Source: Brevibacillus sp. JNUCC-41
GTDB lineage: Bacteria > Bacillota > Bacilli > Bacillales > DSM-1321
NCBI RefSeq assembly: GCF_014844095.1
Contig: NZ_CP062163.1
Span: forward strand, 496,001-560,000
Reading direction: 5' to 3'
Length of the DNA stretch: 64,000 nucleotides
Shown here: in pieces, positions 38,612 to 54,029 of the stretch
Layout of the letters: every line of letters starts with the position of its first letter
Numbering within the stretch: the stretch's first letter is position 1
The notes under the pieces: model-generated
What the model was told of the DNA's origin: nothing
Databases searched by the model: none
Seen by the model: the letters and a program-made list of their open reading frames with translations, nothing else
Made by a program: the position numbers and the translations under genes

Positions 38612-39961
38612 CTAGATTTTGTTATGGCGTTTTTTCCATACAAACGTCAAGGAAATGAAGATGTAGATGCAAAGTGTAATGATCGTAACGATTATGGATG
38701 TCGTGAAAATGATTCCGATCAGGATCGTTATTAAAGCGATGATCGCAGCCCAAGTCGTATACGGGAACCATTTTACCGAATAAGCACTTGTTTTTCCAGA
38801 CTGTTGTTTACGTGATTTCAAATGGGCGAAAGCAATGATCAACCAGATGAATAGTACGGTATATCCTAGCGAACCCATTAGGAACTCGAATGTCTTGCTT
38901 CCAGCAAATAACGAAATCAGTACACCGCCATATAAAGCGGAAGTACACATTAAGATTGCGGGAACAGGTACTTTCTTCTTGGATAAACGGGAAAAGATTT
39001 TCGGAATGCGACCATCCACGGCTTGTGTATATAGAACGCGGGATGAACCATACAACCCGGAGTTCATCGAGGAAATGATCGCTAATAGAACAACGGCGTT
39101 CATAATATGGTCGGCACCAGGAATCCCAATCATTTGAAAGACCATTACAAACGGACTTTCCTGCACCCCGTTTACTTCGTTCCAAGGAATTAAGCTAACG
39201 ATGATGAAAAAGGGAATGATATAGAAGGAAATGATCCTGATTAATGTACTGCGAACGGCTTTTGGTACCACTTTTTCAGGGTTTTTCGTTTCAGCTAATG
39301 TGACCCCGATGATTTCCGTACCGCCATATGAATAGATTACAACCAGCATCGCCGTGATCAAACCGGTCGATCCATTCGGAAAGAAACCGCCATGTTCAGT
39401 CAAGTTAGAAAAACCGACGGCTGTATGATCACCAAAAGTAACGAGCAGCAACAATAATCCAGCCATGATGAACACAATGATGACAGTAATTTTAATTAAA
39501 GCGAGCCAGTACTCCGTTTCAGCAAAAACCTTTACCGATAGTAAGTTAACCGCAGTAACTAAAACCGAAACAGCTAATGCCAGTATCCAGATTGGATATC
39601 CAGGCAGCCAATATTGAAGGAAAATCGCCGCAACCACTGATTCGGCCGCAATATTCAATACCCACATTTTCCAATAGATCCAGTCCAGGAAATAGGCAGG
39701 ATACTTTCCTAAAATCGATTGGACCAAATCCCTGAATGTTCGTGCACCGCTATTGCGGACCGCCATTTCAGCTAAACCTTGCATGATGAATAATAGGATG
39801 ATGCCACCTATCAAGTACGCAATGATTACGGAAGGGCCTGCCATATCAATGGCTGAACTGCTTCCTTTAAATAAACCTGCCCCGATGGCACCGCCTAATG
39901 CCATCATCGTAATATGCCTTGAAGTCATTGTCCTCTGTAAATTCCGTTTGTCCGTTTCCAT
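38612..39961 (-). CDS. yvbW: amino-acid permease under leucine T-box (YvbW-like)
   Basis: 449 aa APC-superfamily permease with 12 spans. The AAT-family start MTSRHITMMALGGAIGAGLFKGSSSAIDMAGP and the segment YSYGGTEIIGVTLAETKNPEKVVPKA are clear. The start was chosen by GGGAGG. The T-box upstream has a CTT specifier, so expression rises when tRNA-Leu is uncharged; B. subtilis yvbW has the same leucine-type control. Leucine or branched-chain uptake is therefore the likely role, from the leader rather than the protein. Confidence 0.85.
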   Translation of the reverse strand: METDKRNLQRTMTSRHITMMALGGAIGAGLFKGSSSAIDMAGPSVIIAYLIGGIILLFIMQGLAEMAVRNSGARTFRDLVQSILGKYPAYFLDWIYWKMWVLNIAAESVVAAIFLQYWLPGYPIWILALAVSVLVTAVNLLSVKVFAETEYWLALIKITVIIVFIMAGLLLLLVTFGDHTAVGFSNLTEHGGFFPNGSTGLITAMLVVIYSYGGTEIIGVTLAETKNPEKVVPKAVRSTLIRIISFYIIPFFIIVSLIPWNEVNGVQESPFVMVFQMIGIPGADHIMNAVVLLAIISSMNSGLYGSSRVLYTQAVDGRIPKIFSRLSKKKVPVPAILMCTSALYGGVLISLFAGSKTFEFLMGSLGYTVLFIWLIIAFAHLKSRKQQSGKTSAYSVKWFPYTTWAAIIALITILIGIIFTTSIIVTIITLCIYIFISLTFVWKKRHNKI

Positions 39962-39984
39962 ATCCTTACCTCCCAAAAATCAAA

Positions 39985-40260
39985 AAAAGCATATCGTCTC
40001 TTCCTTCATAATCAAATGAAGAAAGAGACGATATGCCTTAAGCTTACCGCGGTACCACTCTTATTGGCTCTTTTCTAGAGCCCTGCTTTAAAACCTTGTA
40101 ACGAAGGTCAATCGTTAAAACAAAAGAATGGAATCATTCCTTTCTTTCACTTTACCACTCCCAGGCAAGTTCAAAGTATCATTGGACTGCGTTGCACCAA
40201 CCCGCAGCTCTCTTTACCGAATAATGTGCTTTTACTACTCCTGATCATTGCGTTTCAAAA
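39985..40260 (-). promoter_or_regulatory. T-box riboswitch, leucine specifier
   Basis: The minus strand shows stem I with AGAGAGCTGCGGGTTGGTGC in the distal part, the specifier loop GAA-CTT-GCC (codon at 40167-40169, leucine), the T-box AGAGTGGTACCGCGG (40046-40060) and a long terminator whose arms GCATATCGTCTCTT/AAGAGACGATATGC precede TTTTTTT. Uncharged tRNA-Leu should switch it to antitermination. Confidence 0.93.
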
Positions 40261-40604
40261 ATTAAATTATATCTGAATATTTTTAATAATATCCAATACT
40301 ATACGGACTCAAAGTAAATTTGTCAATAACTTTCTCAGAATAATATTTTCAAAGAAACAAATCATGGGAAATCTCCTTGAGCCAGCACTATGAAATCAGT
40401 AGAATACTATGTGAAATAAAGTTGATGCATTATCACAGCAACTTCACTAGAAATTTGATCATTTCTACCTAAGGTAAATATTTCTTCAGTTTGATTGTTC
40501 CTAACTTAGTGCCATCCGTATTTTTCAAACAATAAATAGACAATATTATTATATTGTCTACTTCCATATATAATAGAGTTAAAAGTGAAAGAGGGTTATT
40601 TAAG
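40261..40604. other. intergenic promoter region
   Basis: On the minus strand TATAAT (40266-40271) with TTGGAT 19 bases upstream can start the T-box transcript. The right part is AT-rich and feeds the HTH protein gene; nothing else recognised. Confidence 0.5.
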
Positions 40605-41015
40605 ATGATTGGTCATGAACCTAAAGAGTTATTAAGAACTCTTCTAAATGATTATAAAATGCCTGCGGCTTCATTAAGTAAAATTACAGGAATATCTGAG
40701 CAAGTCATTCTAGATTTTGCAAATGGTGAAAATATTCAATCCACGGTAACTCAAACAGAAATGATGGACCTAATAGATTTAGTGGGCCTATTAGTCATAG
40801 GCGTGCCTTCATCCGATGCAAATGAAAGGGTCTCTGCTATAACTCAAGCACTGAACAAAGAATTTGGTATACCAGTAGAGACGATTTCCTTATTCTCTAA
40901 TCTTGAGTGTGAAGATATCGAAGAATTCATGAAAGAAAATGATTCTCTGTCCATTGAAAAAAGATACAACCTTGCAGTAACAGTCCTTTTTTTGCATTAT
41001 ATCTTTAAAAGATGA
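40605..41015 (+). CDS. small HTH protein of unknown role
   Basis: 136 aa. The N-terminal LLNDYKMPAASLSKITGISEQVILDFANGE has the shape of an XRE/HTH domain, followed by an all-helical tail. Start chosen by AGAGGG; an upstream in-frame ATG lacks a site. Probably DNA-binding, targets unknown. Confidence 0.6.
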   Translation: MIGHEPKELLRTLLNDYKMPAASLSKITGISEQVILDFANGENIQSTVTQTEMMDLIDLVGLLVIGVPSSDANERVSAITQALNKEFGIPVETISLFSNLECEDIEEFMKENDSLSIEKRYNLAVTVLFLHYIFKR

Positions 41016-41471
41016 TTATTTTATTTATGAAACACCTACCCGGGTCTGACTTTAATTTATGCAACGGAGCATTTCCAGGACAAACAAAACGTTTCAGCAA
41101 CCATGCTTCAACTTCCCTTTTCGTTGTCTGAATATTCATGTAATTACCCTAACATAAACTAATAAGACCCAATGCTCGATACATGAGGGTGAAAACAGCA
41201 AGAGTAAGCAGCCATTTTTCAGAACGATTTAATCTTGGTCAGAAGAAGAACCACTACTGTCTTGTGGGGATGAGTGGTTCTTTTTCCGTTTCTTGGCGAA
41301 CGAAGACAGGATGGCCATAATTAAGCTTAATACCTTCCCTATCTATAATTAGAGCAAAACCGTGGCCTTCTTTCAATCCGTCATCAATAATCCCCACTGG
41401 AATAACCGAACACTAACTTCCTGTTTACCTTATCAAATGAATCTATTAAAAGCCCAGGCTCTCCTAAACGT
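41016..41471. other. gene-free stretch with one terminator hairpin
   Basis: AAGAACCACT/AGTGGTTCTT with a T tail at 41246-41285 is the only structure; no supported reading frame. Confidence 0.55.
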
Positions 41472-41705
41472 TTAAAACTCCCTCCCTAACCATGATGCCG
41501 CCACCATCAGGACCCCAACGACAATCACTATAACCGGTCCTACAACAATTAATCCAAATAACAATGAGACTACTGCGTCCAGAAAGATTCGAAATGGTCC
41601 TGCTTTTTCCTTTTTATTCTGTTGCTGCGTTAATAAGTCTTCAAGATGACCGACTTTTTGCTTCAATTCCTGCAATTCTTGAATCACTTTTGTGTCTTGA
41701 TCCAT
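41472..41705 (-). CDS. small coiled-coil membrane protein
   Basis: 77 aa. Residues 1-30 form a coiled coil (VIQELQELKQKVGHLEDLLTQ), residues 45-72 a hydrophobic segment rich in Val and Gly. The start was chosen by GGAGAGGG. Resembles small Bacillus holin- or scaffold-like proteins in shape only. Confidence 0.55.
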   Translation of the reverse strand: MDQDTKVIQELQELKQKVGHLEDLLTQQQNKKEKAGPFRIFLDAVVSLLFGLIVVGPVIVIVVGVLMVAASWLGREF

Positions 41706-42016
41706 GAAATACCACCCTCTCCAATTAACAATAAGTGTTAATTCTATCATTTATATCCATCTTTTCAAAGTGAGATTGACTATTCTCCGGCAAACATCCT
41801 TTCTTAAGTAATGACGGAATTGATAAATTCGTATGGAGGATTTTTGAAGCAAAGCAGGCGAAGGCTCACTAAGGGCAACAAGGATTCAGAGGGTAAAAAG
41901 AAAAACAGCCCTATGGCTGATTTCCCGATTTCATTAGATACGGCGGCATCACTAAAATCTACAGAATGTTTGTATGCCGCTAAATTTAGTAAATACCAGT
42001 TTTAAACCTGTCACTT

Positions 42017-42042
42017 AAAAGGAATAAAGGATTATTCCTTTT
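42017..42042 (-). terminator. terminator at the end of the RiPP operon
   Basis: AAAAGGAATAA/TTATTCCTTTT hairpin overlapping the last stop codon, T-rich tail on the minus strand. Confidence 0.7.
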
Positions 42043-42736
42043 CATCTTTATACCAAAAATTCTCACTAACTGAGAAAGAGGTTTCGATATTTCGCACGGC
42101 ATGCCACCAATTTTTAGGGGTGTACATTAATTCTCCAGAAAACTGTTCCACAATGTAGGGCTTGGAATATTTGAAATTTGGATCCTCCTTTAAATCCAAA
42201 TCGAATAAATCATGCTTACATTCTTTCACATACTCAGTATCATCAGGGCTGAAAAAAATCCATTTTTTTTGGCCAAATACAACTGCATTCCAATTATGTG
42301 ATTTCTCAAAATCCTGGTGTATTGGGGTTCCTGTTCCAACCGAACCTAGGAAAATCCATTTTAATTTCTTGTTATTTTTGGTCCTGATTGTATTATGGTC
42401 GAATAGAGATGGAGTTTCAAAATAACTCTCTAAATCTTCATTTCCCATGATGGAAAAGGGCCAGTCACAATACAATTTTTCGGGGTTATCATTTAAAATA
42501 CCGATGAATTTACCAAGTTTTGATTTGTAAAATTTTTTTTCTTTATCGTATCCTGATTTCCTTATGATGATTTCCCTTTCTCCATAAGTAGACTGTAGAT
42601 AGTCTGTATCCCAGTCCTTAGAAGGCCATAAATCTACTAATCCTGTTATTATCAGTGGCTTTTTACCCGCATAATTTTCTTCAAAATTCGTTAGTGATAA
42701 TTGTTTATAGTGTATCTTATCTATCAATTCGCTCAT
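42032..42736 (-). CDS. JmjC/cupin-8 Fe(II)/2-oxoglutarate oxygenase, RiPP tailoring
   Basis: 234 aa. A cupin_8 (JmjC-like) fold with metal triad candidates H140-x-D142 (GTPIHQDFEKSHNW) and H212 (KNWWHAV); FGQKKWIFFSP and MYTPKNWWHAV are typical blocks. The family hydroxylates side chains (Asn, Asp, His, Arg, Lys) with O2 and 2-oxoglutarate. It is the last gene of the operon, four bases after the TldD gene, so hydroxylation of the precursor core is the natural guess. Confidence 0.82.
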   Translation of the reverse strand: MSELIDKIHYKQLSLTNFEENYAGKKPLIITGLVDLWPSKDWDTDYLQSTYGEREIIIRKSGYDKEKKFYKSKLGKFIGILNDNPEKLYCDWPFSIMGNEDLESYFETPSLFDHNTIRTKNNKKLKWIFLGSVGTGTPIHQDFEKSHNWNAVVFGQKKWIFFSPDDTEYVKECKHDLFDLDLKEDPNFKYSKPYIVEQFSGELMYTPKNWWHAVRNIETSFSVSENFWYKDEKE

Positions 42737-42740
42737 CCTT

Positions 42741-43817
42741 TCAAAGTACGGGATAAAGTGTTAGATTTTCAAAATGAATATGAGGTGAACCTTGGGTGAC
42801 GCTAAGATTATTTTCACCATTCTTATTACAGCCAAAAACCGGATTAAAGAAATGCAGTTCATTGCTAAGGGACTTAATAGCTTTAGCTGAATCAAGTTTG
42901 TTTCCTTTAATATCAAATCTTCTAAGTATTTTATTGGTTATTTTCCCATTTTTAATGACCAAACCATATGATGGCCGGATTACAAAATTCAAACCAAGTG
43001 ATCCCCCACCCCAGGAACCTCTGCAATAGATCCCATTGTCGATTCCTGAAATTATCTCCTGTACTTCCATATTGCCAGAATCCAAATAAGTTGTTGACAT
43101 TCTGGGCATCGCAAGCGAAGATATGCCAACGCTTCTTGCATTACATGAAGATTGTAAGCCTAGGAGCTTACAAGTTTTTGCGTTATGCATCAAACCTACG
43201 GTTATCCCATCCTTTATTAAGTGAGTCCTAAATGTTTCATTCTGTTCCGCATCCAATAAATAACTGCCATTTTGCCCAGGAATGGTCGGGTCATCGAATA
43301 CGTTGATTTTATATTCTGACCATTTGTATCCCATCGTTATTCCATTTGGCTTTAAATACTCTAGGTAATTATCTGCTTCTAAAGTATGACCAAAACATTC
43401 GTGTACATAATGAGATCCAGTCCATGGCTCAAGCACAATTTGTGTTTCAATCTTGCGTTCAAGTTGCTGACCATATAAAGCAGCTTCTACTTCCGCTAAA
43501 ATAACATCAAAATGATCCATTAATTCAGTACATGGTGACTTATTAGTTCTTGTTTGCCATAATACTGGAATAATAGATGTTGAAGTCTCTATTAAGATCT
43601 TTATAAGGATGGAATACTTTAATTCATAACTGCTTAATCCAATACGAAGTTTGAAGGACTTCCAATGTCTTGAGTGATCATAGCTATCACGTTCAATGAA
43701 TTTTAAACAATGATTTAGTTCTTCTTGAAGAAACTTATTCTTTTCATTATCATCACACCTTGGTGAAACAACCCCTTCAACGGTTGAATCATATGATATT
43801 AAATATTCATTGTTCAT
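42741..43817 (-). CDS. TldD-family zinc metallopeptidase, RiPP maturation
   Basis: 358 aa, shorter than TldD (about 480). The zinc motif HEXXXH is present as H139-ECFG-H144, followed by EAD (E147). LGLNFVIRPSYGLVIKNGKIT resembles the TldD C-terminal strand region. TldD normally works with TldE (PmbA) to trim peptides such as microcin B17; no TldE is encoded here. It overlaps the arginase-like gene by 11 bases. Leader removal or core trimming is the likely job. Confidence 0.8.
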   Translation of the reverse strand: MNNEYLISYDSTVEGVVSPRCDDNEKNKFLQEELNHCLKFIERDSYDHSRHWKSFKLRIGLSSYELKYSILIKILIETSTSIIPVLWQTRTNKSPCTELMDHFDVILAEVEAALYGQQLERKIETQIVLEPWTGSHYVHECFGHTLEADNYLEYLKPNGITMGYKWSEYKINVFDDPTIPGQNGSYLLDAEQNETFRTHLIKDGITVGLMHNAKTCKLLGLQSSCNARSVGISSLAMPRMSTTYLDSGNMEVQEIISGIDNGIYCRGSWGGGSLGLNFVIRPSYGLVIKNGKITNKILRRFDIKGNKLDSAKAIKSLSNELHFFNPVFGCNKNGENNLSVTQGSPHIHFENLTLYPVL

Positions 43818-45051
43818 GTTTCGTATCAGCCCGACTAATTACTAATTGCGAAGGATCGTCATGGATCTTGCCATCAAAATCCATTAATTTCATTCCTAGT
43901 TTTGCTGCGAATGCTTCACCCAATATATAACCCTCTATTCTCATAGGTAATAATTCGATGCACTCTTTTGATAAATCATATCCTTTTTGATACAGCTCCA
44001 AACGAAGGCAACAAATTAAACGTAATATTAGGCCATGTGCCTCGATGGTATCGACTATATTTCCAGTTTTATTAAACCAATTTAAAGCCTCTTCATAATT
44101 CCTATCCTTGAAAAAGTGAATGCCTAAAACATAGGCAGCCCAATATGAATCATCACCTTTTTTAGTCGCTTTTTGATAGCAATTCTTAGCAAGTTCAATT
44201 TCACCAGACTGGGTATAGAGAATCGATTTCAATTTCCAACCTATTGCTCCTAATGGCCTCAATTCAAAGTTTAATTCGTCTATTTCTGCTAGACTCAATT
44301 TTTTATTCGATGAAATTTTCTCCATCGTTACCTTCGGAGAAAACTTATCTTCCTTGGAATATACAATCTCCCTCCCCATTTGTCCTGCTATATATTTCCC
44401 TATCCACCTGAAACTTTCAGGTAGAAACCCACTTTTGATAGAATAGGACATTGTTTTCACTTGATTAAAGAGGCCTAGATTGTTCAATACATGTAAGGTT
44501 TCGTCTATATCATTCGATAAATCATTAGTCTTGGGATCATAAAAATAATCCAAATCGAAATCCACAATAACCTGCTCATTAATTATGAATTCTCCTAGAT
44601 AGTCAATCGTTGTGACATGTAACTCAATATTATTTAATTGTACAGAAGCAGAGTTTTTTCCGTTTCTAAAGCTTGATATGAATTCTTTTCCATGGTTGGG
44701 TACAAGGGATAATAGCTCCCAAAGTAATTCACTAAACCCTTTTTCTCCCAACATACGAGGATATACCCATATTATTTTCCGAAAAAGGCCCTCTTGTATT
44801 GCGGCGTACAAAAAGTCATCAATCCCATAAGAATATCTTCCATCTTCCCTACAAGGAATATCTTTTTTCAATTCATCAATACACAGACCCTCTTTAATGA
44901 ACTGACTGATTCTTTTCATTTTTGAATTTTCTATGAACTTTAAATCTAAGTGTTGATCAAAATAAACCAAGGTACTATTCCTGGGAATTTCATTGACCCA
45001 ATATGAAAATACTTCACTATGTTCCTCATATACATATATTTTATCCATCAT
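43807..45051 (-). CDS. UPF0489 peptide-arginase-like protein with TPR tail
   Basis: 414 aa. The N-terminal UPF0489 domain has the ureohydrolase-like metal motifs D32-Q-H34-L-D36 (VYFDQHLDL) and VDFDLDYFYD. The C-terminal 130 residues form TPR-like helices (AKNCYQKATKKGDDSYWAAYVLG). UPF0489 enzymes such as OspR act on RiPP precursors, changing Arg to ornithine. All three precursors encoded upstream carry exactly one Arg, in the core, which fits. The TPR part may hold the leader or partner enzymes. It overlaps both neighbours by 11 bases. Confidence 0.78.
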   Translation of the reverse strand: MMDKIYVYEEHSEVFSYWVNEIPRNSTLVYFDQHLDLKFIENSKMKRISQFIKEGLCIDELKKDIPCREDGRYSYGIDDFLYAAIQEGLFRKIIWVYPRMLGEKGFSELLWELLSLVPNHGKEFISSFRNGKNSASVQLNNIELHVTTIDYLGEFIINEQVIVDFDLDYFYDPKTNDLSNDIDETLHVLNNLGLFNQVKTMSYSIKSGFLPESFRWIGKYIAGQMGREIVYSKEDKFSPKVTMEKISSNKKLSLAEIDELNFELRPLGAIGWKLKSILYTQSGEIELAKNCYQKATKKGDDSYWAAYVLGIHFFKDRNYEEALNWFNKTGNIVDTIEAHGLILRLICCLRLELYQKGYDLSKECIELLPMRIEGYILGEAFAAKLGMKLMDFDGKIHDDPSQLVISRADTKHEQ

Positions 45052-45835
45052 TCTTAATTAATCCTAAGTTTAGAATCCAGTCTATCTGGTCCTGATTGAA
45101 CTTTTGTTGGCGGTTTATTTCCCTTGAACCTCCTATTTCTACCATTTCTAATACACTTGGATGAATAGGGCCCCTAATTAAATTTTTTTCGGTCGCTGCA
45201 TATAGCCATATAACCTTTTCGGAATCACTAGCTACTTTTTTTCCACTTAGTGCCTCGGATATTTCTTTGGAGTATGTTTGGTACGCATAGTAAATATGAC
45301 CATTATTTTTAACCAGGTCACTATCTATTCTGAAAAATGGGTGTTTATTGACTGTTAGTATAGATAAAATGGCATTTAAAAATTCGTGTTTTAATAGTAA
45401 ATGATTATTATCAGCCGCAAGGATAAATTCTTCGTTTTCAGACAAATAATTGTAAAACGCTTCCTCGATACAAGTCCCCTCCCCTGCATAGGGCAATTCC
45501 ATGTAGCACTCGAAATGTTTGGACGCCAGGAACTTATGCATTAACAGCGTTATATCGGTTTCAAGGGTTTCTAAAGCTTGAAAAACACCGGGAAAAGAAG
45601 TTCTTAAACCACCTTTATGTTCAATATTTCCGCTCATTAAATTTCTTACAATTGTTGTAGCCGTTGCTACAAGCTCTTCTTTATCTATTGTTTTTATGTG
45701 ATTTAAATTATCAGCTGATAAATTCAGTTCATTAAACTCATCATTTAAAAAGTTATTTCTATATTGGTAATCATATAATAAATTGTAAAGTAACTCGTCT
45801 AGTGAATAATTCTTTGGTTTTAAATCATTTGCCAT
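45041..45835 (-). CDS. RiPP-locus partner protein of unknown family
   Basis: 264 aa, soluble, two Cys. The N-terminal stretch LDELLYNLLYDYQYRNNFLNDEFNELNLS resembles in shape the helical start of partner proteins that accompany DUF692 enzymes, which bind leader peptides; I cannot place the rest. It overlaps the MNIO gene by 16 bases, so translation is coupled. An accessory subunit of the MNIO is the best guess, by position. Confidence 0.6.
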   Translation of the reverse strand: MANDLKPKNYSLDELLYNLLYDYQYRNNFLNDEFNELNLSADNLNHIKTIDKEELVATATTIVRNLMSGNIEHKGGLRTSFPGVFQALETLETDITLLMHKFLASKHFECYMELPYAGEGTCIEEAFYNYLSENEEFILAADNNHLLLKHEFLNAILSILTVNKHPFFRIDSDLVKNNGHIYYAYQTYSKEISEALSGKKVASDSEKVIWLYAATEKNLIRGPIHPSVLEMVEIGGSREINRQQKFNQDQIDWILNLGLIKNDG

Positions 45836-46785
45836 TTTTCAACTGCCTCCTTCATTCTTTGATAATTTTTCTGTGACTTCGGAATTAATATTCCTTCATC
45901 TGTATATTTAGGGTCTTCATATGTAATGGCTTTTAAATTAGGGCATAAAGGAAGCAAGTAATCTAAAAGCTGAATTTGTTCATCCATTAAAACTCCATGA
46001 TGCAAATCTCTGAATTTCCCTTTAATAATTTGGCAACCTGAAAGATGCAATTCAAAACAGTTCTCAAAAGGCAATTTTTCTAAACCATTGAACATCTTTT
46101 CATTTGTATTCCCTAACAACCATTGATAACTAAGGATATGACCAATATCTATAGTGATAGGGGAGTTTGTCTCTTCGACCAATGTTCTGAAATAATCAAA
46201 TCCATTTATTTCCCCAATAAAGAAGTTAGTACCTTCAGTGAATCCAGGAAATTCAACTGAAACTGGAACAGCCAGTTCAGATTGGTATTCGTTGATGTTC
46301 TTAATACAAGCTTCCAATCCTGCTGGTGTCATATATGGTGGTAAAGGGAAAGGGACGGTTTTCCCTTTTATTGACCACAGGCCAAGATCTTCTACAATCC
46401 ATCTTATGTCGTATCTTTCTATAATCTTATTTGTGAATTCTATGATTTCTGTTTTTTTGTAATATTCGGTAGCCCCCATATTTAAAATCGTTTGATGGAA
46501 TGCTCTCGCCTTTAGATGTGGATTGGCTTCAAATAATCTATCATAGGCTTCAAAGTAGTCCTCGGCTTTTAACACACTTCTATTTTTCGGTTGAAAAGCA
46601 AAGAAAATATAATTAAACTCGTCTTTATAATTTTGAAAAAAGCCTTTCATCTTAGGCGTGATGTCGTCATGGTCCCCTTTGCTGGAAAAACCTATATCTT
46701 CCCCCCAAGGTAAATCCATGCCTAAACCAAGCCCCAGTTTTTCCTTTACATTCGGAAATTTTATTTTCTGATAGACTGTGCTCAT
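45820..46785 (-). CDS. MNIO (DUF692) multinuclear iron-dependent oxidase
   Basis: 321 aa TIM-barrel. Candidate iron ligands lie in the DUF692 order: E132/D133 (WIVEDLGLW), E178 (VSVEFPG), D213 and H216 (ITIDIGH), E245/H247 (FELHLSG), D260/H262 (FRDLHHG), E290 (ITYED). The start LGLGLGMDLPW is family-like. MNIOs make oxazolones, thiazoles, excised thiols or C-terminal ketoacids on peptides; the precursors here have no Cys, so Cys chemistry is excluded. RBS GGGAGG. Confidence 0.8.
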   Translation of the reverse strand: MSTVYQKIKFPNVKEKLGLGLGMDLPWGEDIGFSSKGDHDDITPKMKGFFQNYKDEFNYIFFAFQPKNRSVLKAEDYFEAYDRLFEANPHLKARAFHQTILNMGATEYYKKTEIIEFTNKIIERYDIRWIVEDLGLWSIKGKTVPFPLPPYMTPAGLEACIKNINEYQSELAVPVSVEFPGFTEGTNFFIGEINGFDYFRTLVEETNSPITIDIGHILSYQWLLGNTNEKMFNGLEKLPFENCFELHLSGCQIIKGKFRDLHHGVLMDEQIQLLDYLLPLCPNLKAITYEDPKYTDEGILIPKSQKNYQRMKEAVEKWQMI

Positions 46786-46809
46786 TTGTCATTCCTCCCA
46801 TAAGTTATT

Positions 46810-48696
46810 TTATTTAAGGTTAATCACACCTTTTTCGACAAAATACTCAAGGTACTTTTTATCGTCAGCCTTGCTAATTATCAGTGTGTTTCCGAATACT
46901 TCTATGGATTCTGGCACTAAGAAGATTCTTTGCCATACAAAGTCCATGATATACGTCCTATCTAGCTTAATGATTTTAGTCCATGGGTTTATCAATAAGG
47001 TATTTGAAGTGATATCCTGTCCTACCGTTTTGTATTTATCAGGAGGTAGCTCATCATTCTTTTGGGGGTTGACACTTTTGTGCAATTGCAAGAATCTATT
47101 CAGCTTTTCTTCAAACGTTTTTCCGTCAGAGTATTGAAATGTTGCTCCCATTCTACCCATCCCATAATTGAGTAATTTGTTTCCTCTTAGATTCTTGCTT
47201 GATTGAATATGGATATCAGGATTATTTGTATCTTCATAAATATAGGTACCTGGTTCTAAAACGAGCATTTGCATGACGTCGATGCCAATCTTATCTTGAT
47301 TTTTAAGTAAAAATTCCTCAGAACATTTAATTTCATCCTCGGTTTCACCAGGTAAGCCACCAATTATAGACATTCGCAGCGTAATGTTGGCATTATGTAA
47401 ATTATCTATTATCTGTTGATAATTACTAGATTGCACTCCCTTATCCAAGGAATCTAAAATCCTTTGAGAATTGGTTTCATAGCCAACAGACATTAAAATA
47501 CAGCCTAAATTACTTAGCTCAAAACAAAATTCAGCGTCTAACAACACATTCTCAAGACGGTTTCGTGTACTGAATTTAATTTCGTATCCTCTGGATTTAA
47601 GGATTTTGACTGCATTGACGACAAGCCTCAAATTAGTATTCTCATCTATGAAATTTATTCTATTAACCCCGTAATTGTTAATGATATCCTCGCACTCGTT
47701 TGCTACTTGCCTTGCCGTTTTTTGCTGATAACTTTTTTCTTTTCTGGATCTATTACCATATGAACAAAAAGTACATCGTCCCCAGTAACACCCCACACAT
47801 GTAATCAAAGACATATGCACTTCTTCATCTAAATAGTTTTTGTACGGTAAATCAGAAAAGTCAGGTGGTAAGGCGTCGGTGATCCTATATGCAGACTTAG
47901 ATGGGATATTTTCAACATTCTTCTCATTAAGCCAAACAATATCCGGCACCATCCCGATTTGGCAATCGTTTTTCAAATACCTGTCCAACATGAATAATGT
48001 TTCTTCACCTGCTGATATTCCTAATGAATCCACAAATTGATTTAATCCATTTAGGCTTAAGAAAGATGATTGACGAATCATGATTTGTTGTCCGCCAAGA
48101 ATAATGTGAGTATTAGGGGAAAGTTCTCTAATCCACTTGCATATTAAAAGGGAAGGTAATATTTGGCTATAATAGGCAATAGAAATCGCGAAGATTTTGG
48201 GCTTATCGTTAAGAATTTTTTCTTTGATATTTTCATATAAAACCTTTGTTGCAATATCACTTTTTTTCCAACTAAAATTCCTTACCAATTCAAGGATTTC
48301 CTCCAATGAGGTAATCTCAAGCTTTAAAAACGAATTTACTAGTAATAGTTCTATGCCTTGTCTCACCAACCGAACGTCATACTTCAATGAATCAGAAGAT
48401 TTTTTCTCAATAAATACATTATTGTAAAGTTGCTTTTGTTCTTTGAATAAGTATTTAGCCATTTCGACTTTATATATCAATTTTAAGTCTTTACTTCCGT
48501 TTTCATTGATGCTCACATATTCAGCTAAACAATCTTCACTAAAGAGGGTATGGCATAATTCAATATTTAAATCAATTTGACTTACACTCATTCCCTTGTT
48601 CCTCAAAAAACTAGTAATCATAGGTAAACTTAGATATGGAAAGAGCCTGGCTTCAGTTAGAGGAGGAAAAACTATCATAGCATCTGAATTTTCCAT
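46810..48696 (-). CDS. B12-binding radical SAM enzyme, RiPP modification
   Basis: 628 aa. The N-terminal 260 residues have the cobalamin-binding Rossmann pattern (IVFPPLTEARLFPYLSL; ISIAYYSQILPSLLICKWI; IILGGQQ). The radical SAM Cys cluster is C303-x4-C308-x2-C311 (GCYWGRCTFC), one residue longer than the usual Cx3Cx2C, with a further C300. RINFIDEN, MSVGYETNSQRIL and SIIGGLPGETEDE complete the barrel. Such enzymes methylate or otherwise alter unactivated carbons of peptides. First enzyme gene after the precursors, strong site AAAGGAG. Confidence 0.85.
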   Translation of the reverse strand: MENSDAMIVFPPLTEARLFPYLSLPMITSFLRNKGMSVSQIDLNIELCHTLFSEDCLAEYVSINENGSKDLKLIYKVEMAKYLFKEQKQLYNNVFIEKKSSDSLKYDVRLVRQGIELLLVNSFLKLEITSLEEILELVRNFSWKKSDIATKVLYENIKEKILNDKPKIFAISIAYYSQILPSLLICKWIRELSPNTHIILGGQQIMIRQSSFLSLNGLNQFVDSLGISAGEETLFMLDRYLKNDCQIGMVPDIVWLNEKNVENIPSKSAYRITDALPPDFSDLPYKNYLDEEVHMSLITCVGCYWGRCTFCSYGNRSRKEKSYQQKTARQVANECEDIINNYGVNRINFIDENTNLRLVVNAVKILKSRGYEIKFSTRNRLENVLLDAEFCFELSNLGCILMSVGYETNSQRILDSLDKGVQSSNYQQIIDNLHNANITLRMSIIGGLPGETEDEIKCSEEFLLKNQDKIGIDVMQMLVLEPGTYIYEDTNNPDIHIQSSKNLRGNKLLNYGMGRMGATFQYSDGKTFEEKLNRFLQLHKSVNPQKNDELPPDKYKTVGQDITSNTLLINPWTKIIKLDRTYIMDFVWQRIFLVPESIEVFGNTLIISKADDKKYLEYFVEKGVINLK

Positions 48697-48721
48697 CTAA
48701 AGAAATTCTCCTTTAATTTAT

Positions 48722-48763
48722 CCAAAGAGAGTGCTAGTTTTTTAAAAGCTAACACTCTCTTTG
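48722..48763 (-). promoter_or_regulatory. hairpin between precursor genes and enzyme genes
   Basis: Arms CAAAGAGAGTG and CACTCTCTTTG, extended by TTAG/CTAG, with an A/T-rich loop. It has no clean T tract. Probably a partial terminator or processing site that keeps precursor messages in excess over enzyme messages. Confidence 0.65.
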
Positions 48764-48791
48764 AATCACCATTATGGATTTAGGATCTTAC

Positions 48792-48926
48792 TTATTTTTC
48801 TGCGTCCGACACTGTACTGAAACGGAATGCATGAAACGCACTACCCACTTCCAGCTCTTTAGCTTCGATTACTTCAAGGTTTTCCACTAGCTTTTCCGCC
48901 TGTGTATTTTCCACTTGCTTAGTCAT
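48792..48926 (-). CDS. RiPP precursor peptide A
   Basis: 44 aa. Acidic helical leader MTKQVENTQAEKLVENLEVI followed by EAKELEV, then the core GSAFHAFRFSTVSDAEK (from G28). One Arg (R35), one His (H32), three Phe, no Cys. ATG after GGAGGTG. It lies nearest the modification genes; leader identical to the two other copies. The leader/core border at EV-GS is inferred from conservation. Confidence 0.85.
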   Translation of the reverse strand: MTKQVENTQAEKLVENLEVIEAKELEVGSAFHAFRFSTVSDAEK

Positions 48927-48980
48927 ATGTTCCACCTCCTTACCATTTGCAATGGATTGTGCCTGTAACTCTGCTCTAAT

Positions 48981-49115
48981 CTATTTTTCTGCGTCCGACA
49001 CTGTACTGAAACGGAATGCATGAAATGCACTACCCACTTCCAGCTCTTTAGCTTCGATTACTTCAAGGTTTTCCACTAGCTTTTCCGCCTGTGTATTTTC
49101 CACTTGCTTAGTCAT
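48981..49115 (-). CDS. RiPP precursor peptide B
   Basis: 44 aa, the same protein as copy A (core GSAFHAFRFSTVSDAEK) with a silent difference and a TAG instead of TAA stop. ATG after GGAGGTG. Keeping identical protein with separate translation signals suggests a dosage effect. Confidence 0.85.
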   Translation of the reverse strand: MTKQVENTQAEKLVENLEVIEAKELEVGSAFHAFRFSTVSDAEK

Positions 49116-49169
49116 ATGTTTCACCTCCTTACCATTTGCAATGGATTGCCTGTAACTCTTGGCTCTAAT

Positions 49170-49304
49170 CTATTTTTCTGCGTCCGTCACTGCATTGAAA
49201 CGGAATGCATGAAATGCACTACCCACTTCCAGCTCTTTAGCTTCGATTACTTCAAGATTTTCCACTAGCTTTTCCGCTTGTGTATTTTCCACTTGCTTAG
49301 TCAC
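49170..49304 (-). CDS. RiPP precursor peptide C (variant core)
   Basis: 44 aa with the leader unchanged and core GSAFHAFRFNAVTDAEK: substitutions S37N, T38A and S40T. AFHAFRF and the single Arg are kept. Start is GTG (ATG in the other copies) after AAAGGAGGTGA; an overlapping ATG reads straight into TGA. First precursor after the exporter gene. Confidence 0.82.
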   Translation of the reverse strand: MTKQVENTQAEKLVENLEVIEAKELEVGSAFHAFRFNAVTDAEK

Positions 49305-49375
49305 ATGTATCACCTCCTTTAAATCAATTCAAAGCTGTCTCTTCTTGGTATATTTCACTATCAGCTAAACGGGAA

Positions 49376-50767
49376 TCATACTTCTTCTTTCAAAGACAAT
49401 TTTATATTGCTCTTTAAAAGCCTTTTATCATATATGACTGTTCCAATAGCCACCAAATATAATCCTATACAAATGAATAACACGTAGGAAAAACCAACTT
49501 TGGAAAAGTCACCTTGGTCAGTGCCATAATCCAATAAAGTGTTGAATACCCCCGCCGCGAAAGCCCCAGTTCCAAACTGTACCATCTGGAACAAACCCAT
49601 ATAAACCCCGGTTTCTTCCTCAGGAACGGACATCATAGCAATTTTATTTTGTGTGGGCATGGAAATGACACCTGCCAATCCAAAAAGGAGAAATGCAAAT
49701 ATAAAGAAAATTAAGCTGCCATTAAACATTGTCATAGTAAGGTTTACCATTCCAATTATGGAAATCGAAATAGATAGAAGTAAAAGGTTTCTATTGTCTT
49801 TTAAATCTGCAAGTTTACCTGCATACCCAGATAACAAAACGGCCAGTATCGAATCTGCCATAATAATATAGCCAACAATATCTGGTTGAATATTATGTAT
49901 ATCCCGCATGTAACTTGGTATGTAAAGCACAATTACATTTGTGATAGTAAAAAGAACGAATATTCTAATAATTGATGAGATAAAAATGGTGTTTTTTATT
50001 GCCTTTCTTGGAAGCAGAGAAGTATTTCCGTAGTTTGCCCGTTCATAAAATATAAATAAAATCAAACTCAATATCGTAACAGCAATAGAAAGTGACCGTC
50101 CCACTATACTAATTTCATCGTTGAATATGAATTGAAAACTGATTACCATAACCAGTAAAGCCAAACTGTTTTTTAAAGGTAAATGAAGGTTTGCCGTGAT
50201 TCTTTTTTTTGATTTGGGAGTTACCATTAATACAAGAATTAAGGATATGCAACTTATGATAATCAATACTCCAAATATCATTTGCCAAGAGAAGTATTTT
50301 ATTACCAAACCTCCAGCAGCTGGTCCAATAAGTGAGGCAGCCGCTAAAACTCCGGAAAACCACCCAAAAGCCCAACCTAATTTATTATCCTTAAAACTTT
50401 GCCTAATCAATAATACCTGTGCCGGTACTACCATTGCATCTGCAATTGCCTGAAGCGTCTGATAAACCAAAAACAAATTCCAATTATTTGTGGTTCCACT
50501 AAGAATGGTAGATGCGATAAATAGCGATAGGCCAAATATCAACAATTTTCTTGCCCCTAATATATCCGCCACTTTACCAAAAAGCGGAATGAGAAAAGCG
50601 AAAAAAGAAAAGAATAGAATATTTCTAATTTGAAGTGTGGAATAAGAAATATTAAAAAAGTCTACAAGATTAGGGAACGCAATCGTCAGCATGGACGTAG
50701 ACATCACACTAGCTATAACACATGAAGAAATGGTTATAATCAATAATTGATCTTTATTTATTTTCAT
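49376..50767 (-). CDS. MFS transporter, 14-span drug:H+ antiporter type
   Basis: 463 aa, DHA2-like. Start SSCVIASVMSTSMLTIAFPNLVDFF and antiporter motif LFGKVADILGARKLL; about 14 spans. Encoded between the signal peptide and the precursors on the same strand, so the probable exporter of the finished peptide or an immunity pump. RBS AAGGATC is modest. Confidence 0.82.
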   Translation of the reverse strand: MKINKDQLLIITISSCVIASVMSTSMLTIAFPNLVDFFNISYSTLQIRNILFFSFFAFLIPLFGKVADILGARKLLIFGLSLFIASTILSGTTNNWNLFLVYQTLQAIADAMVVPAQVLLIRQSFKDNKLGWAFGWFSGVLAAASLIGPAAGGLVIKYFSWQMIFGVLIIISCISLILVLMVTPKSKKRITANLHLPLKNSLALLVMVISFQFIFNDEISIVGRSLSIAVTILSLILFIFYERANYGNTSLLPRKAIKNTIFISSIIRIFVLFTITNVIVLYIPSYMRDIHNIQPDIVGYIIMADSILAVLLSGYAGKLADLKDNRNLLLLSISISIIGMVNLTMTMFNGSLIFFIFAFLLFGLAGVISMPTQNKIAMMSVPEEETGVYMGLFQMVQFGTGAFAAGVFNTLLDYGTDQGDFSKVGFSYVLFICIGLYLVAIGTVIYDKRLLKSNIKLSLKEEV

Positions 50768-50855
50768 ATAAATGATCCTTTTTTTATTTATTTTATTTAA
50801 ATTCGCCTTTAGGTATCTTCCCTTTTTAATATAGTTTGATATTGGTATTTAAACC

Positions 50856-50984
50856 TCAATGCTGATTCGGCAGATCATTTATTATAGGCCGATCATCTAC
50901 AGCCAAATTGAAGCTTGAATCGAATTGTACAACCATCGCTAATGTAAATAGAATGGAGAACCCAGATACTAATATTTTTTTCAT
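50856..50984 (-). CDS. PapR-like exported signal peptide precursor
   Basis: 42 aa. Sec-type signal (KKILVSGFSILFTLAMVV), then a short mature part ending NDLPNQH. In the PlcR/PapR system the active heptapeptide is the C-terminus of PapR with the pattern xDLPxEx; NDLPNQH fits its DLP core and terminal His. ATG eight bases after AGGAGG. Divergent from the PlcR-like regulator, as expected for its partner. Confidence 0.78.
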   Translation of the reverse strand: MKKILVSGFSILFTLAMVVQFDSSFNLAVDDRPIINDLPNQH

Positions 50985-51017
50985 ATCCCTAACCTCCTGA
51001 TATTGATCGATACAACT

Positions 51018-51046
51018 AGTATAAACCATCCAAATATGGTACATTT
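51018..51046 (-). promoter_or_regulatory. signal-peptide promoter with spacer dyad
   Basis: TATACT -10 with a weak -35 (AAATGT) 17 bases upstream; the dyad ACCATATTTGGATGGT fills the spacer exactly (51025-51040). A weak -35 plus spacer dyad suggests control by the adjacent regulator. Confidence 0.5.
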
Positions 51047-51151
51047 TTCTTGTATGAATGCTACAGAGTATTTTTTTCGATATTTTTTATGTATTTCCAA
51101 TGAATTACATAAAAAAATATAAAAGTATTTATATTTTTAGGAGTTGATAAA

Positions 51152-52057
51152 ATGGATTCAAATATTCCTTTTAAGCTCGGAAATGTACTCTACACTTTAA
51201 GAAAAAGGTCAGGCATAACACAAAAAGTCATGGCAGAGGGAATCATTACTCAAGCACAACTAAGCAACATAGAGAAGGGGAAAGTCATTCCATTAGCGAC
51301 TACTTTATATGAGCTCTCATTGCGTTTAGGTATCAGCATTGAGGATATACTTTTAGAAACTTATTCAGACCGAATGGAATATAGTGAGGAAGTGAAGTCT
51401 CAAGTCAGGGTTTCTATTAGAAATAGAGAGTATAGGCAGGTAAAACGGATTCTCGAAGCAGAACAATACCATGCAGATTTCCAGTCACCTATCAATAAAC
51501 AATTCATCCTCTGGCATTTGGGGATCGTAGCATATTATTGTGATAATGATATATTGAAATCCCTGGACTTTTTAGATCAAGCACTAGACTTATCTACTCA
51601 TTTTCATATTTTTTCTGCTCAAAAAATAGAAATATTGAATAGCAAAGCCATTATTTATAACGAAATTACTGAATATAAAAAGTCTATTGCCTCTTATGAA
51701 GATGCCCTTAAGCAACTTCAACAACTTCCAAAAACCTCAATGAATTATAGAATTAAAGTCCGGATTCAATACGGATTGACAAAATCTTTACATAAGGACG
51801 CACAATATTATGAATCTATAAAAATTTGCTCTGATGCTATTCAAATTTTGATCCGGGAAGAATCTATGTACCTTTTGGGAGAAGTTTTATATCAGCGCGC
51901 CTTATCCTTGCAGTCACTGAACAACATGGAAAGTGCCACAAAGGGGTATGAAGAGGCAAGGAATATATTCTTATTGCAGCAGAATTACGAATTTGAGAAA
52001 GTCGTTCAGGAAAGACTATATGAGATAAAGAAATCACTTAAAGTGTATAAAGATTGA
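51152..52057 (+). CDS. PlcR-like quorum-sensing regulator (HTH-TPR, RRNPP group)
   Basis: 301 aa. N-terminal XRE-type HTH (residues 8-65; LGNVLYTLRKRSGITQKVMAEGIITQAQLSNIEKGKVIP), a linker helix, then about five TPR units (75-295), e.g. IYNEITEYKKSIASYEDALKQL. Length and layout match PlcR (285 aa), which binds its re-imported PapR heptapeptide in the TPR groove. Strong site AGGAG. It probably switches on the signal gene, exporter and RiPP operon when the peptide accumulates. Confidence 0.82.
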   Translation: MDSNIPFKLGNVLYTLRKRSGITQKVMAEGIITQAQLSNIEKGKVIPLATTLYELSLRLGISIEDILLETYSDRMEYSEEVKSQVRVSIRNREYRQVKRILEAEQYHADFQSPINKQFILWHLGIVAYYCDNDILKSLDFLDQALDLSTHFHIFSAQKIEILNSKAIIYNEITEYKKSIASYEDALKQLQQLPKTSMNYRIKVRIQYGLTKSLHKDAQYYESIKICSDAIQILIREESMYLLGEVLYQRALSLQSLNNMESATKGYEEARNIFLLQQNYEFEKVVQERLYEIKKSLKVYKD

Positions 52058-52503
52058 AGAATTCACTTAGCAAAACATGCTTACTTTTTTGGTTGCATTC
52101 AAATCAATTTTTTTAGGGAATGTGTTCGTCTTGGATTTAATTAAGCATGAGAGTTAAGGAAGACGGTTATTTATATCAATCAGTACACAAAAATAATTAA
52201 CCCGTAATAAAAAAGTCCCAATAACTACCTTTTCCAAAATGGGTGTCATGAATAGACTAATAAAAAAAACCTAGCTTATTCAAGCTGGAAAGCAAAGGAT
52301 AGCATAAGGGGTCCCTATCTATATTCCTCGTTGTCATGAATTTTGAAAGGCATCTACCCTCATGGGTCAAGAATCTCTTTGAAACCCACTCTATCATTCT
52401 ATTTTCATCTTAAAATTAAAACTATTTTTTCAAATTCTGTCATCAATGTTACAATAACAAGGTTGAAATCAATCTATAGAACACGTGAGGTATCATATTT
52501 TTT
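52058..52503. other. intergenic gap right of the RiPP locus
   Basis: AT-rich; no supported gene, dyad or repeat. Contains the promoter of the MFS gene to the right. Confidence 0.5.
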
Positions 52504-53667
52504 ATGAAAGCAATACGATTATTAAAGGGTTTTAACTTTTTATATTTTGGACTGCTTGCCATTTTCATTCCGTTTCTCCCAGTCTATCTGGCTGATCAAG
52601 GTTTGCGTCCTGCCCAAATCGGATTCATCGTCGGTACAGGAGGTTTTGTCACCCTCATCACCCAGCCTTTATGGGGAATGATCAGCGACAAAACAAGGAC
52701 AATACGAAAAGTCCTGTTGTTACTCATCTTTTTCTCGAGCATAATCGGTTATTTCCTCTATGATTCAAGCAGTTATCTTCAGCTCATCCTGTTTGCCATG
52801 CTGCTATATTTCTTTTTGATGCCGATCGATCCCTTGACGGAAAGCCTCAATTTTACGATGGCAGAGAAATCCGGGATCAGCTACGGCTCCATCCGGACAT
52901 ATGGTGCATTGGGTTATGCGGTCATATCGCTGATCACCGGCTATGTTATGTCTTATTTCGGGGCGAACAGCCTTGCCTTCCTTTTTGCAGGCATTGGTTT
53001 GATCAGTTTCATTATCAGCTGGATGATGCCTGATGCACCCGTTTCAGGGAAACCTGTCACCTTTAGCAGCCTTAAGCATTTTTTCGGCAATAAAGAGACG
53101 CTTCTCTTTCTGTTATTGGTCTTTATTTGTGCTGTTCCAGCAAGGATGAACGATACTTTCCTCGGGGTGTATATCCGGGAACTTGGAGGAAGTGCCAAGC
53201 TTGTAGGCTTGACCTGGTTCTTAGCGGCGGGAAGTGAAATCGTTGTGTTCGCCCTAAGTTTTTGGTGGCTTCGCAAGGGTAAGGAAATCATCATCATTTC
53301 GTTTGCAGCAGCGTTTTTCTTTATCCGTTATTTCGTCTCTGCGTGGATTACCGATCCACAGCTATTAGCTTATTTGCAAGTCATGCAGCTATTGACTTTC
53401 CCGATTTTCTACTCGGCGGCCATCCAATATCTATATCGGATCGTTCCGGTGGAATGGCGCGCCACAGGCCAGACCGTACTGGCGCTGCTATTCTTCGGGG
53501 TTTCGGGAATCATTGCTTCTTATATAGGCGGAGCCATATATGGGACTTACGGCGGCAAGACCCTTTACCTGTTCATCTCCTCCATCTCCTTTATAGGAAT
53601 GGTATTCGCTTTGGTTCTTTATCGGATCTACGGCAAGAGGCTCGATACCGCAGATGAAGCTGTATAA
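52504..53667 (+). CDS. MFS transporter (MFS_1-like, YwbF type)
   Basis: 387 aa, 12 spans. FNFLYFGLLAIFIPFLPVYLADQGL and the motif TQPLWGMISDKTRTIRK place it in the LacY/NupG-like MFS_1_like group, usually sugar or nucleoside importers. Substrate unknown; base composition is native, unlike the RiPP genes which are more AT-rich. Confidence 0.8.
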   Translation: MKAIRLLKGFNFLYFGLLAIFIPFLPVYLADQGLRPAQIGFIVGTGGFVTLITQPLWGMISDKTRTIRKVLLLLIFFSSIIGYFLYDSSSYLQLILFAMLLYFFLMPIDPLTESLNFTMAEKSGISYGSIRTYGALGYAVISLITGYVMSYFGANSLAFLFAGIGLISFIISWMMPDAPVSGKPVTFSSLKHFFGNKETLLFLLLVFICAVPARMNDTFLGVYIRELGGSAKLVGLTWFLAAGSEIVVFALSFWWLRKGKEIIIISFAAAFFFIRYFVSAWITDPQLLAYLQVMQLLTFPIFYSAAIQYLYRIVPVEWRATGQTVLALLFFGVSGIIASYIGGAIYGTYGGKTLYLFISSISFIGMVFALVLYRIYGKRLDTADEAV

Positions 53668-53684
53668 TGAAAAAAATCTTATAA

Positions 53685-53718
53685 AAAAGAGCATGTTTTG
53701 ATCAAAACATGCTCTTTT
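53685..53718. terminator. bidirectional terminator
   Basis: Perfect 34-base palindrome around TGATCA, arms AAAAGAGCATGTTT. Confidence 0.85.
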
Positions 53719-53726
53719 GCATTCCG

Positions 53727-54029
53727 TTAGCGAAATAATGGGGCAACCGTTAACATTAGCACAGAGAAGCAAAGCAGTATAGTGGTTGTCCTGTTTGAGA
53801 GTTTTACTTGTCTGTCATTTTTATAGAACCCAGAAAATTGAAGCCGGTTTTTATAGAGTACATAAAGTAATGGGAAAATTGCCAAAGCAACAACCCATCC
53901 GCCCGTGGTATTCTCTACGGTTATACCAAAAATCGCATAGATTGAATTAATGATGAACCCCATTATCATTCCAATAACGAAAATGATGGTGATTATACGA
54001 AATAATTCTAAGATCACTCTTAACATCAT
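53727..54029 (-). CDS. small membrane protein, unknown function
   Basis: 100 aa with three hydrophobic helices (about 5-28, 42-58, 80-97) and short basic loops (YKNRLQFSGFYKNDRQVK). Start by GGCAGGTGAA. Family not recognised. Confidence 0.6.
   Translation of the reverse strand: MMLRVILELFRIITIIFVIGMIMGFIINSIYAIFGITVENTTGGWVVALAIFPLLYVLYKNRLQFSGFYKNDRQVKLSNRTTTILLCFSVLMLTVAPLFR

Follow-up and report, generated by a model that had tools for sequence, protein, structure and literature searches.

A biphenomycin-type biosynthetic cluster of Peribacillus that probably carries its own peptide-responsive switch

The locus described here lies in a 64,000-nt stretch of contig NZ_CP062163.1 (positions 496,001 to 560,000; hereafter the window, whose coordinates are used throughout for the genes, the presence/absence unit and its edges), from a genome of the genus referred to here as Peribacillus. 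It consists of biosynthetic genes for a ribosomally synthesized and post-translationally modified peptide (RiPP), a gene for a PlcR-like regulator and a small gene for a predicted signal peptide. An original prediction, made from the DNA letters, had described twelve features in this block; all twelve are present at the positions it gave, with the open reading frames (ORFs) of the signal and the precursors likely starting later, and its recognition of a RiPP locus was right. The features are as follows, where MFS stands for major facilitator superfamily, HTH for helix-turn-helix and TPR for tetratricopeptide repeat.

41778..52380, no strand: the whole presence/absence unit, about 10.6 kb; its edges differ among the comparisons, by about 40 bp at most
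42032..42736, minus strand: JmjC/cupin oxygenase, PbsQ/BipG ortholog, predicted ornithine hydroxylase (Pfam Cupin_8, 86.9 bits; JmjC, 47.4 bits)
42741..43817, minus strand: solitary TldD-type metallopeptidase with HECFGH (HExxxH), PbsP/BipI ortholog (PF19289, TldD C-terminal domain, 123.3 bits)
43807..45051, minus strand: UPF0489 peptide arginase with a TPR tail, PbsE/BipC ortholog (PF12640, 31.5 bits, cut-off 27; weaker TPR matches)
45041..45835, minus strand: MNIO partner protein, PbsD/BipF ortholog (by position and conservation)
45820..46785, minus strand: MNIO (DUF692) oxidase, PbsC/BipE ortholog, predicted ortho-tyrosine maker (PF05114, 45.7 bits)
46810..48696, minus strand: B12-binding radical SAM enzyme, PbsB/BipD ortholog, predicted biaryl cross-linker (PF04055 Radical_SAM, 53.5 bits)
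48700..48795, minus strand: strong 18-bp RNA hairpin between the last precursor and the radical SAM gene (−29.1 kcal/mol, z −4.8, 0/200 shuffles as low)
48792..48935, minus strand: precursor A3, AFHAFRF core (relatives in L002 and L036)
48981..49124, minus strand: precursor A2, AFHAFRF core (relatives in L002 and L036)
49170..49313, minus strand: precursor A1, AFHAFRF core (relatives in L002 and L036)
49376..50767, minus strand: MFS exporter (MFS_1, 159.9 bits)
50856..50984, minus strand: predicted PapR-like signal-peptide gene, 42 aa, ending ...INDLPNQH, the first gene before exporter and precursors (conserved in L002 and L036)
50985..51151, no strand: divergent intergenic region (167 bp), candidate promoter/operator, with a perfect 11-bp inverted repeat
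51152..52057, plus strand: RNPP (PlcR-like) HTH-TPR regulator, predicted peptide receptor (HTH_3, 39.5 bits; RNPP_C, 59.6 bits; both above cut-off)

On the minus strand the genes run in the order signal-like gene, MFS exporter, three precursors, B12 radical SAM enzyme, MNIO, partner, UPF0489/TPR protein, TldD and JmjC enzyme, with the regulator gene diverging from them on the plus strand. From the radical SAM gene to the JmjC gene, neighbours overlap by 11–16 bp or stand 4–24 bp apart; the gaps before the radical SAM gene measure 45–95 bp. In each precursor ORF (47 aa as listed) the first GTG is part of a GGAGGTG ribosome site, so that a start three codons further on, at ATG in A2 and A3 and at GTG in A1, is more likely and gives 44 aa. 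For the signal ORF, the ATG at 50984, which follows a good ribosome site and gives 42 aa, is a likelier start than 51044. The originally predicted families hold up, the Pfam scan with cut-offs agreeing for every enzyme except the partner protein, which has no above-cut-off family match in Pfam or NCBIfam and whose ortholog is described as RRE-containing in the published paper. The NCBIfam scan gave related but sub-threshold matches for several proteins. Precursor A1, the sole precursor included in these two scans, matched nothing above their cut-offs, and nor did the signal-like peptide. For the radical SAM enzyme, the B12-binding domain match is sub-threshold (20.9, cut-off 32.1) and that to TIGR03975 (rSAM_ocin_1, 91.8 bits) falls under its own cut-off. 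The MNIO has 173 homologues at E 0.001 and no match among solved structures.

Judged by its sequence, the block is orthologous to the biphenomycin (pbs/bip) RiPP cluster already in print, a new member of a known antibiotic pathway. AFHAFRF, by which Padhi et al. 2025 (PMC12257519) define their clusters, forms the core of 3/3 precursors, all three copies of which carry ...ELEVGSAFHAFRF..., and the enzyme set matches: MNIO and partner (the latter by position and conservation), B12 radical SAM enzyme (with its B12 domain below cut-off), UPF0489 arginase, JmjC/cupin oxygenase and MFS protein all stand together. The TldD protein has no TldE partner, being the sole PF19289 match in the whole 5.49-Mb genome (the control for this search was positive in 10/14 genomes), as expected for the lone TldD-type protease of these clusters. 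The arginase metal motifs read EEHSE, DQHLD and DFDLD, to be compared with EEHxE, DxHxD and DIDLD in PMC12707348, and the JmjC gene adjoins the TldD gene, matching the placement of pbsQ in PMC12257519. The nearest described counterpart, pbs of P. simplex BE23, shares the AFHAFRF motif, the MFS, B12 radical SAM, MNIO, partner, arginase, TldD and cupin/JmjC genes and the genus, but is described with four precursors as opposed to three in the window. Ps_bip of P. simplex_D shares the enzyme families, three precursor copies and the lack of BipH; the Streptomyces Sg_bip and Sf_bip clusters share the enzyme families, although Sg_bip, unlike the window, has one precursor and BipH. The original prediction had called the pathway undescribed, and that is where it fails: in 2025 these genes, with AFHAFRF precursors, were characterised from the same genus. 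The combination is rare (3/43 family genomes), but its core motif, enzyme set and genus are those of characterised clusters, which refutes novelty for the enzyme set and leaves an undescribed RiPP pathway very improbable.

The published work provides an order of steps. In P. simplex BE23, MNIO and partner are reported to turn the two Phe of FRF into ortho-tyrosines, the arginase to make ornithine, which the cupin enzyme hydroxylates, the B12 radical SAM enzyme to join the rings and a lone TldD-type protease to mature the product (PMC12257519); Strunk et al. 2025 (PMC12707348) report that Streptomyces bip and P. simplex_D follow this logic too. By analogy with these orthologs, the window's MNIO and partner would hydroxylate the two FRF phenylalanines to ortho-tyrosine, the arginase would then convert the Arg between the two ortho-tyrosines to ornithine, the B12 radical SAM enzyme would join the two rings, the JmjC enzyme would hydroxylate the ornithine, the lone TldD would trim leader and follower, and the MFS protein would export the product, likely serving both export and self-protection.

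Orthology also predicts the product, biphenomycin B. All ORFs of at least 120 aa in the unit are assigned and none of them is free to be a BipH-type HExxH beta-hydroxylase (a statement about the unit, made without a dedicated BipH HMM or a search of the rest of the genome), which fits P. simplex_D, reported to make biphenomycin B only, from three precursor copies and without BipH (PMC12707348). A biphenomycin-like macrocycle that keeps some of the C-terminal follower would be in line with BE23, for which, according to PMC12707348, full proteolytic processing was not observed; however, biphenomycin B is the product of P. simplex_D, which also has three precursors and whose TldD cleaves at either end (PMC12707348), and we regard a follower-retaining product as improbable.

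The distribution of the block was examined in samples of genomes from the family (n = 43, of which 36 belong to the window's genus), the order (n = 397) and the class (n = 398). The MNIO occurs in 3/43 family genomes, all three in the window's genus, and in 2/397 order genomes (the window's own and G023), while the class scan, run with the related query P0003, gave 6/398 genomes (the own genome and five new ones). Homologous loci in which these genes are never conserved together, which the original prediction had named as evidence that would count against it, are not what we found: all block genes are collinear in L002 (a contig of Peribacillus frigoritolerans RU293, from which the genus name used here is taken) and in L036, with large proteins 91–98% identical to those of the window, precursors and signal peptide 79–100% identical, and three and five precursor copies, respectively, compared with three in the window. 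A contig scan with the MNIO by itself returned one locus, that of the near-identical P. frigoritolerans RU293, since patterns built from a single sequence are narrow. The MNIO of a Bacillus clarus cluster is 80% identical to that of the window; 10 genomes from the same genus as G228, which may be a centre of the Bacillus cereus group, gave no match, and nor did a plasmid search with the radical SAM enzyme at E 1e-30.

More distant clusters divide by core motif. L080 and L081 carry FHAFRF cores with arginase and TldD relatives, and L082, L083 and L084 carry FHTFMF cores with MNIO, partner and radical SAM enzyme and, by tblastn, no arginase, TldD or JmjC relative; the arginase is likewise reported to be lacking in the FHTFMF motif class (PMC12257519). 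The precursor ORFs of the first two (L080:12742-12939 and L081:12051-12245) each contain two tandem AFHAFRF cores, each following a short leader-like repeat (ELxVxEAxELxVGNAFHAFRF), so that two products per precursor are possible. In L080, one in-frame TAG splits the MNIO frame (10691-9723, minus strand) in the record, as either a real mutation or a sequencing error.

The regulator and the signal-peptide gene belong physically to the cluster. Of the 23 genus genomes with the right-hand flank gene, 20 lack the cluster, and stretches from 10 of these 20 were compared with the window. In 10/10, the match leaves the window at 41769-41793 and resumes at 52376-52416 with 7–25 bp between, and hence about 10.6 kb, comprising regulator, signal gene and cluster, is either wholly there or wholly missing. 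The regulator/signal pair and the biosynthetic genes are thus one 10.6-kb presence/absence unit. No target-site duplication was noticed by eye at its edges. The left edge differs in L036, where window 41014-42022 is unmatched and about 290 bp stand in place of about 1010.

The pair itself resembles a receptor with its signal. The regulator combines an HTH with a TPR/RNPP C-terminal domain and matches the PlcR structure 2qfc over residues 8-285 (E 2.7e-21), its only solved relative by sequence. Beside it lies the 42-aa ORF with a basic start, a hydrophobic stretch and a ribosome site, conserved in three genomes and presumably secreted. As in PlcR/PapR of the Bacillus cereus group, a homologous HTH-TPR protein is accompanied by a small neighbouring peptide that carries DLP close to its end (ADLPFEF in the case of PapR7; PMC6568020); the window differs in that its peptide ends DLPNQH, no PlcR box occurs in the block and the presumed target is another. 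Streptococcal Rgg/SHP RaS-RiPP clusters (PMC8092268, PMC13361665) likewise place a peptide/receptor pair beside a RiPP cluster, the production of which is shown or inferred to depend on cell density, although Rgg is described as another receptor subfamily and RaS-RiPPs as another RiPP class.

Regulators with at least 94% identity occur in exactly 3/43 family genomes, the same three that hold the cluster and its MNIO, and the next best is 44% identical. (A protein search with the regulator returned one cluster, a result not informative on rarity as weaker relatives exist.) At E 1e-40, relatives are found in 92/397 order genomes. Small ORFs with a [DETS]LP motif near their end lie within 600 bp of 37/56 receptor loci; at several further loci the peptide ends GLPNQH, GLPSQH or RLPNQH and escapes this filter. 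Of the six nearest other relatives of the regulator (L009, L010, L085-L088), 5/6 adjoin a peptide ending DLPNQH (L009, L085-L088); those of distant Peribacillus receptors end in ELPGLY-, ELPPML- or ELPTLF-type motifs. A tree was built from 25/56 receptors, after 18 without a filter-passing peptide and 13 near-copies had been dropped; in it, five DLPNQH relatives and the three cluster regulators form a fork of eight (91/93, not starred) that contains all DLPNQH neighbours except L109, whose peptide continues for six residues after the motif. The labels "other" on L011, L105 and L110 in this tree are likely false ORF picks, and L032 (ELPGVH) falls in the other clade. The regulator of G023 was flagged as stopping inside its frame; a broken gene was considered and rejected, as the protein merely ends about five residues early. 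The DLPNQH-type pairs of L009 and L085-L088 are spread over several Bacillales families; at L039/L009, the one whose surroundings were inspected, no biphenomycin cluster stands beside the receptor pair. Fifteen genus genomes (L013, L015-L025, L030, L031, L033) encode a further RNPP receptor, accompanied by a peptide of 37 aa that contains the signal-like motif twice (ELPGLYAELPGLYK).

We infer that this pair controls the operon, because it lies in the unit, its signal-like gene heads the gene series and such receptors tend to regulate their neighbours, as is described for RRNPP-type receptors (PMC10075063). The pro-peptide would be secreted and a C-terminal piece with DLPNQH re-imported, where it would bind the TPR part of the regulator; the peptide-bound regulator would then activate a promoter in the 167-bp divergent region. 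Since the signal gene stands first in a same-strand series with exporter, precursors and enzymes, signal and antibiotic would rise together, in a self-amplifying manner. Overall, we assign a probability of about 0.7 to the locus being an ortholog of the biphenomycin cluster, predicted to make biphenomycin B, with a regulator and signal gene likely activating the operon at high cell density. Of the switch that the original prediction attributed to the locus, the linked regulator/peptide pair within the cluster unit is supported, its control of the operon being the proposed part.

Several observations weigh against such control. The PlcR box has 8 matches in the window (9.3 expected) and, at up to 2 mismatches, none in 41778-52380, so the block lacks the box that PlcR sensu stricto has at its target promoters. 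A motif derived from the intergenic regions of related receptor/peptide pairs, which was picked with these sequences in view and may be no more than the regulator's −10 region, is clear in 7/9 regions (at most 1 mismatch, at most 5/300 shuffles as good) and weak in the window (3 mismatches, 84/300 shuffles as good) and in L088. No DLPNQH peptide lies near L010, the second-nearest relative of the regulator, which lowers our confidence, and the G023 peptide has three residues after the motif. A DLPNQH pair is present in G042 without a biphenomycin cluster, showing that the pair can serve other targets (in both G042 and G034, a related receptor lies among genes without the cluster). Finally, a search at E 1e-4 over 19.5 kb gave no relative of the regulator in L080-L084 (two FHAFRF and three FHTFMF clusters), and the switch is therefore not an invariable feature of the biphenomycin cluster class.

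The lone pair in G042 and these five Bacilli clusters, together with the fact that no operator is established, would suit an arrangement in which the pathway is as described but the pair is a passenger, acting on itself or on other genes while the operon is driven independently. This we consider unlikely, given that the pair lies inside the presence/absence unit, that the regulator ortholog occurs only with the cluster among 43 genomes and that the scan of the operon strand showed nothing terminator-like from signal gene to exporter. The sign of the control may also be questioned. The perfect inverted repeat (51113-51123/51128-51138), in an AT-rich stretch just upstream of the regulator start, is complete in L036 and retained over 10 bp in L002; it is a candidate operator only, and its position would suit a repressor that is relieved by the peptide. 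RNPP receptors of both kinds, activators and repressors, are known. On the other side, the only solved sequence relative is the activator PlcR, and on the operon strand of the divergent region the scan gave nothing resembling a consensus promoter, which fits the need for an activator, if weakly, as the scan was overall at chance level (48 found, 47.2 expected). Repression is accordingly the less probable mode, with odds well below even, and we retain the peptide-switched activator.

A known antibiotic cluster therefore probably carries a quorum-sensing module that has gone unremarked. The words "regulator", "quorum" and "PlcR" are absent from the main texts of PMC12257519 and PMC12707348, whose supplements may show the pair; searches of open-licence full texts showed no description of the switch, although the pair may sit in supplements or be one of the 196 RRNPP-linked cases that RRNPP_Detector reports (PMC10075063), where pairs beside clusters, with density-dependent production shown or inferred, are described. 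A full-text search of the same kind for LPNQH or DLPNQH found no occurrence among the papers listed. A more ambitious proposal, to which we give slightly less than even credence, is that the cluster has a dedicated DLPNQH quorum-sensing system, the signal gene of which is co-transcribed with the antibiotic genes and passed on with them as a single cassette, and that the DLPNQH peptides of relatives without the cluster could trigger or jam the antibiotic across species.

A further level of control may lie in the RNA hairpin before the radical SAM gene, which is kept in L002 (z −4.1) and L036. Because no T-run follows it, it more probably acts in processing or stabilisation, raising precursor RNA above enzyme RNA, than as a simple terminator. 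A search of 40000-54000 with Rfam at gathering cut-offs returned one match, a T-box outside the unit, and nothing else. This T-box leader (123 bits; 40021-40257, minus strand) lies just outside the unit, upstream of an amino-acid permease gene (38612-39976).

Biphenomycins are described as potent against Gram-positive bacteria (PMC12707348), and what merits follow-up in this locus is its probable built-in control by quorum sensing. If a short peptide does switch the Peribacillus cluster on, such clusters would be inducible simply by adding the peptide, and one could then test how the antibiotic is used ecologically.

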